Source: Candidatus Poribacteria bacterium
GTDB lineage: Bacteria; Poribacteria; WGA-4E; WGA-3G
Reading direction: 5' to 3'
NCBI GenBank assembly: GCA_009841255.1
Contig: VXMD01000072.1
Span: forward strand, 1-64,000
Length of the DNA stretch: 64,000 bases
A program made the translations under genes and the position numbers. Under the pieces are notes generated by a model that was not told where the DNA came from, made no database searches, and worked only from the letters and a program-made list of their open reading frames with translations. Below, piece after piece: positions 4,049 through 63,249 of this stretch (positions within the stretch are counted from its first letter, which is position 1; each line of letters begins with the position of its first letter).

Positions 4049-4756
4049 ATGATTCGGATTGCACACCGTGGGGCATCGGGAATTGCCCCAGAAAATACGC
4101 TCGCGGCATTCGAGAAGGCACTCGATATCGGTGTGGATGCGGTTGAGCTTGATTTACACGGAACCGCCGATGGCGAGGTCGTCGTGATACACGATGCTTC
4201 TTTGGATCGAACGACGAACCACTATGGACGTGTCAATCAAACGACTTTAGAAACGATTAAACGCGCCGATGCTGGTGGGTGGTTCGCTCCCGAATTCGTT
4301 GGAGAGTCCGTGCCGACGCTTGTAGAGGCACTGGAATGCATCACAAAGAAAACGATTGCCGTTTTGGAAATTAAAGACCCATTGATAGCAGAGGCAGTCG
4401 TTGCCAGAATCCACGGGACCCAGACACAAGATCTGACCGTTATTATCTCCTTCCATACTCCTGTTTTAGAAACCGTTCGTGCATTAGAGCCGCGTATTCC
4501 AACCGGATGGATCATCGGAACTGACAATAACCACGCCTCTCCTGTGCAGTTGTGCCAGCAACTCGGGGAACTCGGCAGCAACCTGCTGGACGTCAACCAC
4601 CAACTGATTACAGCAGAATTCGCTTACGAAATCCAACGGCGCGGTATCGCACTTTGGTGTTGGACTGTCGATGACATCTCCCGTATGCGCGAGATGAAAG
4701 CGTTCGGTGTGCAGGGTATCACCTCAAATCACCCTGAACATTTTGTCAAGGTTTAG
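4049..4756 (+). CDS. Glycerophosphodiester phosphodiesterase
   Basis: A 235-residue GDPD-family enzyme that hydrolyses glycerophosphodiesters to glycerol 3-phosphate and an alcohol, recycling phospholipid head-groups. The signature is clear: IAHRGASGIAPENTLAAF at the N-terminus with the catalytic His, followed by VELDLHGTADGEVVVIHD with the metal-binding Glu/Asp pair and second His. There is no signal peptide, so it should be cytoplasmic, as for UgpQ. It ends 20 bp from the convergent metallophosphatase gene. Length matches the 230-250 family norm. Confidence 0.92.
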   Translation: MIRIAHRGASGIAPENTLAAFEKALDIGVDAVELDLHGTADGEVVVIHDASLDRTTNHYGRVNQTTLETIKRADAGGWFAPEFVGESVPTLVEALECITKKTIAVLEIKDPLIAEAVVARIHGTQTQDLTVIISFHTPVLETVRALEPRIPTGWIIGTDNNHASPVQLCQQLGELGSNLLDVNHQLITAEFAYEIQRRGIALWCWTVDDISRMREMKAFGVQGITSNHPEHFVKV

Positions 4757-60897: not shown

Positions 60898-60927
60898 TTG
60901 ACATATTTGGATTCTTTCTTGTATCAT
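60898..60927 (+). promoter_or_regulatory. Promoter of the structured RNA and first LamG paralogue
   Basis: TTGACA (60898-60903) and TATCAT (60922-60927) are 18 bp apart. The same elements (TTGACATATTT, 18-bp spacing, TATCATATT, then a TTAAAACG segment) precede the second LamG paralogue at 62347. Confidence 0.65.
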
Positions 60928-60954: not shown

Positions 60955-61375
60955 CTTTTTACGGTAAACGTGGGCGTTTTGAAGGGTTCAATTCCCTTCT
61001 ACCGTATCCAGTAGCGTTGTGTAAGAACCAAACACGCCCCGACAAGAACCACGTCGGTGCTACTGGAGGGGTTCATATACGAGTGAGACGAACCCTGACC
61101 TTGTGAGGACACTCGGAAGAAAAAAAGGCGTTAGCAAATCAACGGTATGAGGCCCGTGTGGGCTTCCCCGGGTGCTAACTTTGAGGGTTACTCCACGTAG
61201 CGCGAACCTTTGCTACGTGCAAATCGCCTGTTATCTTCTATGACGTGCCTAGACGACACTGGATACAGGCAGGTTGGACACGACGGTGTCTACAAAGGGA
61301 CTTAAGGACTCCCGTAAGAAACTACATTTACCTACGCAAACGCAGGTTTACGCGGTTTTTTACTAACAGGTATAC
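60955..61375 (+). ncRNA. Large structured RNA-like segment between promoter and LamG gene
   Basis: About 420 nt with no convincing gene and dense complementary pairs. Seen: ACGGTA (60961) with TACCGT (61000) enclosing AACG/CGTT and GAAGGG-TTCAATT-CCCTTC, a T-arm-like hairpin; CCAGTAGC with GCTACTGG (61007-61065); GGGTTC with GAACCC (61069-61095); AGGCG (61126) with CGCCT (61225) enclosing GTTAGC/GCTAAC and CACGTAGC/GCTACGTG; and GGGACTTAAGGACTCCC near 61298. CCTTGTGAGGACAC resembles what I recall of HEARO (omega RNA) consensus, unverified. It ends with TTTACGCGGTTTTTT. Confidence 0.55.
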
Positions 61376-61377
61376 TC

Positions 61378-62169
61378 ATGCGTTTAATGTTGTATTTATT
61401 TGCCGTTGCCCTTCTAATGGTGGGCAGCGCGTTTAACACACACGCCACGGTCACAGATGACGGCTTAATCCTTTACTTCAGTTTCGATGACGCGACAAAT
61501 GGCACAGTTATGGATGAAACAGGCGGCGGAAATGATGGTGTAATTGATGGCGCAGAAATTGCTACGGATGAAAAAGTCTACGGCAATGGATCGTTGTTAT
61601 GCGATGACGGGAATGACAGTGTGTCGGTCGATTCTTTTCCGGCATTAGAAGAATATACGGACAACTCCTATCTCTTCTGGCTCAATTTCACCGATGTGAA
61701 TTCCGGTGCTTGGAATCAAATTATAGCAAAAAAGGCACCCGGTTCTGACCGGTCTCCGGGGATATGGACCTGTAACCGTGCACCGCTGTACATCCACTAT
61801 CGGTTTAATCCCGGTAACGCCGGCACACTCTGTGCGGGTCCTGAGGGGGAAGATGACGAGTTTACGGTCGGTGACTGGTATCACGTCGCAGGTGTCAAAG
61901 AGGGTGACAAGTTGAGATTCTATGTAGATGGGGAAGAAGTTGTGGAACAAACGGTTCCGGCGAGTCACGCGCAAGGTGCGGAAAAACTCTATATCGGTAA
62001 AACGGGTTACGCCTCTGCGCTCTTCTACATTGATGACCTTTATGTCTACGATAGAGCCGTCAGCGCCGATGAGGTAGAAATTATCAAGGAAGGCGGTCTG
62101 CTCACGCCTGTCGAACCGCAAGACAAACTTGCCACGACGTGGGGACAGTTGAAAACGCGTCGTGATTAA
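61378..62169 (+). CDS. Secreted LamG-like protein with VEP-type C-terminal tail
   Basis: A 263-residue exported protein. Residues 1-24 are a signal peptide. The LamG body shows GLILYFSFDDATNGTVMDET, DNSYLFWLNFTDVNSG, a FYVDGEEVV strand and FYIDDLYVYDRAVSADEV. The end is VEPQDKLATTWGQLK. It is a near duplicate of the next gene with the same promoter sequence, but the structured RNA segment lies in its leader. AGG precedes the ATG weakly. Function at the cell surface is likely, partner unknown. Confidence 0.87.
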   Translation: MRLMLYLFAVALLMVGSAFNTHATVTDDGLILYFSFDDATNGTVMDETGGGNDGVIDGAEIATDEKVYGNGSLLCDDGNDSVSVDSFPALEEYTDNSYLFWLNFTDVNSGAWNQIIAKKAPGSDRSPGIWTCNRAPLYIHYRFNPGNAGTLCAGPEGEDDEFTVGDWYHVAGVKEGDKLRFYVDGEEVVEQTVPASHAQGAEKLYIGKTGYASALFYIDDLYVYDRAVSADEVEIIKEGGLLTPVEPQDKLATTWGQLKTRRD

Positions 62170-62376: not shown

Positions 62377-62457
62377 ATTCCCACGAGTTAAAACGTGGTC
62401 TTTTTTTGAAGATTCACATAGTATGTTGACTTTGTTTCAGACATGAGGAGGTTACTC

Positions 62458-63249
62458 ATGCGTTTGGTTATGTATGTACTCACCGTTGCCCTATTCGTAA
62501 TAGGCAGCGCACTCACCACAGATGCCGCGAATGTCACAGATAAAGGGTTAATCCTTTACTTCAGTTTCGATGAAGCGAAAGGTGGAAAACTTGTAGATGA
62601 AACCGGTGGCGGAAATGATGGTAAAGTCGTTGATGGGGGGTCGATTGACAAAAATAAAGGGAAGTACAAAGGCGCGATGTTATTTGAAAAAGGCGCGCAC
62701 AGTGTGACAGTCGATTCCTTCAAAGAATTAGAAGATTATACGGACAACTCCTATCTCTTCTGGCTCAACTTTACGGATCCGAACTCCGGTGGCTGGGATC
62801 AAATTATTGCGAAAAAAGCACCCGGTTCTGACCGTTCACCCGGTATATGGACCTGTAACCGTGTGCCCCTGCATATCCACTATCGGTTTAATCCCGGTAA
62901 CGCCGGCACGCACTGTGCAGGTCCCGATGGAGAGAACGACACATTTGATGAGAATAAATGGTATCACATTGCAGGTGTCAAAGAGAAGGCCGAGTTGAAG
63001 TTTTATGTTGATGGAAAAGAAGTTGTGAAGATAGCTGTTCCGAAGGACCACGCCCAAGGAGCAGAGAAACTTTATATCGGTAGAACGGGTTATAACGCCG
63101 CGAAGTTCTGGATCGACGATCTCTACGTCTACGACAGAGCCGTCAGTGCTAAAGAGGTTACAGAGATTATGGACGGTAAACTACTTCCTGTTGAACCTGC
63201 GGACAAACTTGCCGCTACGTGGGGGCAACTGAAAAAGCGTCGTGACTAA
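62458..63249 (+). CDS. Secreted LamG-like protein with VEP-type C-terminal tail (paralogue)
   Basis: A 263-residue protein, the same length as the gene at 61378 and largely identical in the core (DNSYLFWLNFTD, RSPGIWTCNR, HYRFNPGNAGT). Signal peptide 1-23. The tail is VEPADKLAATWGQLK. The ATG at 62458 has GAGGAGG 8 nt upstream; an ATG five codons earlier lies in the Shine-Dalgarno region. It lacks the structured leader of its twin. Confidence 0.88.
   Translation: MRLVMYVLTVALFVIGSALTTDAANVTDKGLILYFSFDEAKGGKLVDETGGGNDGKVVDGGSIDKNKGKYKGAMLFEKGAHSVTVDSFKELEDYTDNSYLFWLNFTDPNSGGWDQIIAKKAPGSDRSPGIWTCNRVPLHIHYRFNPGNAGTHCAGPDGENDTFDENKWYHIAGVKEKAELKFYVDGKEVVKIAVPKDHAQGAEKLYIGRTGYNAAKFWIDDLYVYDRAVSAKEVTEIMDGKLLPVEPADKLAATWGQLKKRRD

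Follow-up and report, generated by a model that had tools for sequence, protein, structure and literature searches.

A compact, IS607-related element with a conserved RNA fold located before start codons of Poribacteria genes

The window analysed here, a stretch of 64,000 nucleotides (positions 1 to 64,000 of contig VXMD01000072.1 from a Candidatus Poribacteria bacterium), contains two neighbouring LamG genes, whose features are collected in Table 1. An earlier note on these letters had described the genes as twins and reported that a structured RNA separates promoter and ATG in the first one only. The promoter region is indeed common to both, with the TTGACA and TATCAT words of the first gene (LamG1) also present in its twin and in the orthologues, and the segment is missing before the second gene (62458) as well as at 12/12 sister loci carrying LamG1 orthologues (L253-L264). 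Stems and a T-arm-like hairpin were found where they had been claimed, with the bounds redrawn from 60955-61375 to 60961-61369, and as proposed no protein gene explains the segment, its open reading frames being short and mechanical. L256, an element-less orthologue of the window gene, reads GAGGAG-GTATACTC-ATG (hyphens mark junctions), and the identity of its spacer shows the window copy to have an exact right junction. The right end of this copy is intact; on the left, a deletion has removed both the end of the element and the Shine-Dalgarno site before it. The window copy is a truncated relic, and the value of the finding rests in the family; the window letters on which the earlier reading was based could not have revealed that the segment belongs to a mobile, dispersed family derived from IS607 and has lost its 5' end. 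A distinct, dispersed hairpin repeat (61137-61172) lies inside the loop formed by the hairpin at 61130-61178. The window's genome has about 45 more copies of this repeat and sister genomes have many, some in tandem, and sister copies of the element do not have it at that position.

Table 1. Features of the LamG locus and of the element (positions in the window)
Feature	Position	Strand	Basis or remark
Promoter-like TTGACA (60898-60903) and TATCAT (60922-60927) of the LamG1 gene	60898-60927	+	by eye
Compact ORF-less IS607-derived element, window copy	60961-61369	+	homologues, empty sites
tRNA-elbow-like domain	60961-61005	+	alignment, pair counts
Branched helix closing two hairpins, loops containing AACC	61007-61067	+	pair counts
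H-type pseudoknot, GGGGTTC/GAACCCT with CGAGTG (61080-61085)/CACTCG (61110-61115)	61068-61115	+	pair counts
Hairpin GTTAGCA...TGCTAAC, loop enlarged by a separate repeat in the window copy	61130-61178	+	
3' domain (model R2), position of a TnpB guide RNA (reRNA)	61179-61317	+	common to tnpA-tnpB elements
Terminal hairpin and right end ...ACTAACAG	61318-61369	+	
Host spacer GTATACTC	61370-61377	+	same letters in element-less orthologue L256
Host gene, LamG (Laminin_G_3) protein	61378-62169	+	
Twin LamG gene without element	62443-63249	+	start probably ATG 62458, after GAGGAGG

Folding of the segment gave -147.2 kcal/mol, compared to a mean of -128.4 kcal/mol for random shuffles (z -2.94), and 0/100 shuffles folded as well. 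Its elbow domain combines an acceptor-like stem (ACGGTA/TACCGT), a D-like hairpin with GG in its loop and a T-arm, the loop of which is TTCAATT in the window and TTCRANT across the family (TTTAATT in one copy); the CCA following the domain is not conserved among relatives. For the 5' module, 46 pairs in 26 sequences were 96.6% paired and 19 of them were changed on both sides, a pairing that 0/500 shuffles reached, with slid controls at 32-42%. Similarly, 106 pairs of the whole element in 24 sequences were 96.7% paired, 45 being changed on both sides, and none of 500 shuffles reached these values. The fold beats its shuffles and the paired bases are kept in relatives, contrary to the two outcomes that the earlier note had named as speaking against its reading. 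The second pseudoknot stem is almost invariant, and because of this its support comes mostly from one compensatory pair, changed on both sides in L095. At the ends of the element, the left-end UUCCU forms four pairs with an AGGA loop (90% of cells paired), and the terminal ACAG, for which CTGT/TTGT in the region of the pseudoknot is a possible partner, is paired with CUGU in 96% of cells, both with few compensatory changes. Covariation support was weak for a P1-like helix between UUCCU and the Shine-Dalgarno site, a pairing that 34 to 51 of 500 shuffles reached on four of five measures and 26 on the fifth.

A DNA search of 97 genomes led to long homologues in the same genus only, several of them within one genome; the relatives, like the host of the window copy, are sponge-associated bacteria. 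Covariance model R1 of the 5' module gave 34 matches in 19/38 genus genomes (33 with more than 100 bits), and no strong match outside the genus across 84 genomes of the phylum. The exact core pattern was found in 25 stretches of the GTDB collection, all Poribacteria, and exact patterns of both modules had no match in the viral collection. As four copies in one genome (G005, L046-L049) differ in hardly a letter over the stretch between AGGAG and AACAG, with sharp ends and in unrelated surroundings, their sequences indicate that the element is mobile. Roughly one in four copies of the module (8-10/33) has lost or replaced its left end (the window copy, L017, L053, L058, L063, L096, L028/L029, L050 and L095). 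Five copies with the window-type module are without most of the 3' domain (L028, L029, L031, L064, L095), seven carry a different 5' module (L224, L225, L240, L245, L246, L248, L042), L244 has a third kind and L242 almost none, and because of this variation in content the 5' and 3' modules must have been gained or lost independently. The second module (GGAAAC..., GGGCGAAG..., CCCGC.ACGTCGAAGCGGTATA) may form a pseudoknot (GTCG/CGAC); its model R3 matched in 7/84 phylum genomes, two matches being weak, and the module gave no Rfam match. The hairpin GCGTTAGCATTTCGGTGCTAAC is letter-identical between copies with different 5' modules (L246 and others), which suggests recombination at that point. 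Short RNAs of the same tRNA-elbow plan (acceptor, GG-loop hairpin and T-arm, overlapping the TAA in ACTAACG and followed by hairpins) were noticed at L101 (G053:C121 near 39.7 and 44.5 kb), L102 (G047:C33 near 0.2 and 3.8 kb) and L083 (G021:C85), mostly in a sister genus and in seemingly phage-like regions; their R1 matches are weak, and the common plan is possibly unrelated convergence.

Comparison of nine filled genes with 30 orthologous loci, selected as close matches, showed 30/30 of these to be without the RNA and 9/9 insertions to be clean. Directly before the spacer, 29/30 empty orthologues read GGAG, the exception being L151 with AAGGGGG. Filled copies read AAGGAG-TAGTTCC...AACAG-spacer-ATG, the spacer being that of the empty orthologue letter for letter in L048, L047 (vs L152), L060 (vs L142) and L025 (vs L145) and near-identical in the others; an example of exact flank identity at the junction is AAGGAG-GAACAGTGC-ATG. 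The boundaries are AGGAG-UAG...AACAG in most intact copies, some starting with C or A, and these copies follow the Shine-Dalgarno GGAG directly and stop a few bases short of the start codon. As is typical of IS607-type insertion, the site is short and G-rich and nothing is duplicated beyond a dinucleotide, AG alone being common to both ends in 9/9 comparisons. Judging from these junctions, the element inserts after AGGAG, the Shine-Dalgarno word itself, and the empty sister sites, along with the compensatory changes, support the reading that an insertion of structured RNA separates promoter and ATG.

Model R2 of the 3' domain gave 63 matches in 23/38 genus genomes and two in one genome of a sister genus (G040). 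At 11/30 places recognised by R2 only, a left end was detected 1731-1750 nt upstream, and these elements of about 1.9 kb contain an IS607 serine transposase (tnpA; NF033518, 152.9 bits, cut-off 110) with MerR/HTH and Resolvase domains, and TnpB (NF040570, 116.2 bits, cut-off 100). Their 3' domain starts at or near the tnpB stop codon and finishes at the transposon end. An autonomous copy is present in the window's genome (L222, C49, 77219-79137, 1918 nt), and in L231 the end of tnpB is visible at a contig edge. Compact and autonomous copies have the right end and the 3' domain in common, and intact compact copies also the left end; the 5' module is absent from the tnpA-tnpB copies. From its sequence, the element is thus a well supported compact, ORF-less derivative of an IS607-family transposon. 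For IS607 TnpB, a published study gives AGGAG as TAM in 18/22 strains and a 187-nt reRNA scaffold located after the gene (PMC11061315). Because position, length and site agree with this reRNA, the 3' domain is presumed to be a TnpB guide-RNA scaffold. In G040, the genome from a sister genus, L249 (G040:C213:3700-3842 and 4453-4624) comprises two divergent matches to the 3' domain, separated by about 600 nt, the first ending in ACTAACAG, seven bases before an ATG.

One of the 33 copies with the 5' module could not be read (L023), and 30/32 of the others have a start codon 2-14 nt past the right end, L024 and L059 being the exceptions. All further places found with the 3' model are at a start codon as well (30/30, 29 of them within 5-15 nt), and L042 and L189 bring the total to 62/64, with no copy seen inside a gene. 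Since 162/702 AGGAG sites in 72 loci precede a start codon, the binomial tail is 4e-37 if the places are independent; the 64 are places and not independent events, several being orthologous (among others L028/L029, L031/L064/L065, L054/L052, L055/L030, L058/L096 and L224/L225). The window has 104 AGGAG sites, 20 before start codons, 77 in ORFs and 7 elsewhere, and if insertions into ORFs were lost by purging, start codons should account for about three quarters of the remainder. Purging could hence explain most of the bias, not all of it; if it occurs, the element does harm inside genes, in contrast to an intron that splices freely. Compact copies precede the genes of L28, L21, S20, S21, NuoD, thioredoxin, superoxide dismutase, cytochrome oxidase III, EF-Ts, ACP and gyrase/topoisomerase subunit A. 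The left end is kept before L28, L21, S20, NuoD, EF-Ts and ACP, and copies without it precede LamG, lipoprotein, trxA, gyrase subunit A (L247) and other genes; L095, one of the latter copies, has its own Shine-Dalgarno-like AAGGAAAAGG. Core status of the genes behind the copies is presumed, and tnpB is visible in 17 copies (11 long, 6 others), which precede genes that we take, by eye from the sequence, to be non-core. Long copies without the 5' module are likewise located at start codons. In the 20 nt before the start, mean anti-Shine-Dalgarno pairing was -3.6 kcal/mol as is and -9.0 kcal/mol after in-silico joining, for the 17 copies in which a 5' Shine-Dalgarno site could be recognised, those without one being left out. 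Because of this difference, intact copies would leave weakly paired starts if the RNA were neither removed nor bridged.

As to known RNAs, no Rfam family matched the segment at its cut-off, tRNA and tmRNA models (ARAGORN, Rfam) gave no match to it, and scans of the whole window and of the locus gave sub-threshold chance matches only. An antisense Plastid-ycf2 match (20.9 bits) was dismissed as chance that merely reads the T-arm. A tmRNA or permuted tmRNA, prompted by T-arm, CCA and pseudoknots, was rejected since the CCA is not conserved and the genome has an ordinary tmRNA elsewhere (189.8 bits). A larger homing-type intron was expected, and tnpA-tnpB was found instead. Intron_gpI did not match stretches of 481-661 nt with E up to 10, the sensitivity of this model for IStron introns being uncalibrated, and inspection by eye of all three kinds of 5' module revealed no P4-P6/P7 arrangement, the L244 module having a few reminiscent words. 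RAGATH-18 did not match in whole-Rfam scans of 10 loci with E up to 5. For IS607 together with Shine-Dalgarno sites, the literature search turned up only work on TldR, and a search from 2022 on for IStrons with TnpB found none. A 2024 paper reportedly sets IStron introns against guide RNAs.

An element lodged between a Shine-Dalgarno site and its start codon would be expected to shut off protein production, unless its RNA is able to remove or bridge itself. The explanation we rank first, which we put forward tentatively and would not yet call probable, is that the insertion is made tolerable in an IStron-like manner, with a fold that docks both ends on the core and removal of the RNA from the transcript. 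The IS607-family derivative inserts after AGGAG, with a new 5' structured module (tRNA elbow and pseudoknot) in place of tnpA and tnpB and a 3' part consisting of the transposon right end and the presumed TnpB guide-RNA scaffold. In intact copies, those at core genes included, the RNA lies between Shine-Dalgarno site and start codon, and would fold with both ends docked and be excised, so that AGGAG is rejoined to a spacer of 5-12 nt and the start codon; the window copy, as a 5'-truncated relic, would no longer be able to excise at the usual site. Removal at the RNA level is ranked first and a structural bridge second because the ends agree with IS607-type IStrons and the starts would otherwise be weakly paired. 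The boundaries follow the IStron pattern (after G, U first, CAG or CGG at the end), and the group I core of class IA2 was not recognised by the Rfam model. Against removal also stand the surviving truncated copies, the module-less long copies at start codons, the three unlike 5' modules and the lack of intragenic copies, which speaks against simple efficient splicing. For comparison, 58% of known IStron insertions are intragenic, according to a published survey (PMC4227781).

Alternatively, the RNA may stay in the message, its fold bringing the upstream Shine-Dalgarno site beside the start codon so that the ribosome loads across a structured gap of 400 nt. This would fit the placement at start codons in 62/64 places and never inside a gene, the two anchorable ends (UUCCU/AGGA loop 90%, ACAG/CUGU 96%) and the left end kept before L28, L21, S20, NuoD, EF-Ts and ACP. 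We know of no case of loading across such a gap, the contacts of left end and ACAG show few compensatory changes, and left-end-deleted copies persist, so that we regard a bridge as rather unlikely. We are a shade more doubtful that the compact copies are promoterless mini-transposons which supply their own TnpB guide (scaffold and downstream flank), kept where host promoters transcribe them, the gene being merely weakened. In favour are the 3' domain reaching from tnpB stop to transposon end, as reported for IS607 reRNA with its TAM AGGAG in 18/22 strains (PMC11061315), and the autonomous copy L222 in the window's genome. Guiding does not need the 5' module, since long elements are without it, whereas L028, L029, L031, L064 and L095 keep this module without most of the 3' domain, and ribosomal-protein genes stand behind the insertions. 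A cis-regulator adopted by host genes (a riboswitch-like, RNase P-cleaved or attenuating leader with the tRNA elbow as signal) is improbable in view of the missing common function of the genes and of 98%-like copies at new genes, which point to a mobile element, despite the strongly conserved elbow, the copies retained without 3' domain and the hairpin and T run that terminate the window copy.

Self-removal of the RNA, as in the first-ranked explanation, would make it an intron class missed by current models, at the site of first ribosome binding, and an independent case of a transposon joined to an RNA that gives tolerance. If it is not removed, translation of ribosomal-protein genes would start across a folded gap of 400 nt, and ideas on Shine-Dalgarno spacing would change. 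We think it unlikely, though worth stating, that the elbow and pseudoknot module forms the heart of a new kind of RNA able to remove (or bridge) itself, distinct from both group I and group II, which has been joined to a Shine-Dalgarno-aimed IS607 and lets the element invade the leaders of essential genes silently. That the AGGAG of IS607 TnpB is the Shine-Dalgarno word also offers a simple reason for such elements collecting in leaders. The transposon family is ordinary-looking and real; the RNA passenger and its address are extraordinary.

Among known systems, the c-di-GMP-controlled group I intron of Clostridioides difficile sets the distance from Shine-Dalgarno site to start codon by splicing. 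It joins a group I intron to a riboswitch at one locus, whereas the present element is dispersed and no group I core was detected. Like MITE-like non-autonomous derivatives, the copies are short, ORF-less and numerous, with ends common to an autonomous partner; unlike them, they keep an internal RNA by compensatory changes and occupy a fixed position, after the Shine-Dalgarno site and ahead of the start codon. With the IS607 TnpB of ISFba1 and its RAGATH-18-derived reRNA (PMC11061315), the element has in common the TAM AGGAG, here the insertion site, and an RNA of about 190 nt directly after tnpB that ends at the transposon end, but neither RAGATH-18 nor another Rfam family matched here, and compact copies have an extra 5' module and no tnpB. 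The closest comparison is with group B IStrons (BcISt1, CsISt1, CbISt), in which IS607 is combined with a group I intron. According to the published survey (PMC4227781), these insert after G and begin with U, splicing of BcISt1 after G was seen in vivo by RT-PCR, and the hosts given are Firmicutes and Fusobacteria only. Both have a full form with IS607-type transposase and TnpB, a G-ending insertion site without target duplication, usually U as first base, ORF-less forms, a CAG right end (CsISt1) and a structured RNA in the 5' part (PMC4227781). In contrast to these IStrons, no group I core was detected in the present element and its module is missing from the tnpA-tnpB copies; it is located before start codons instead of within genes, and its hosts are Poribacteria.
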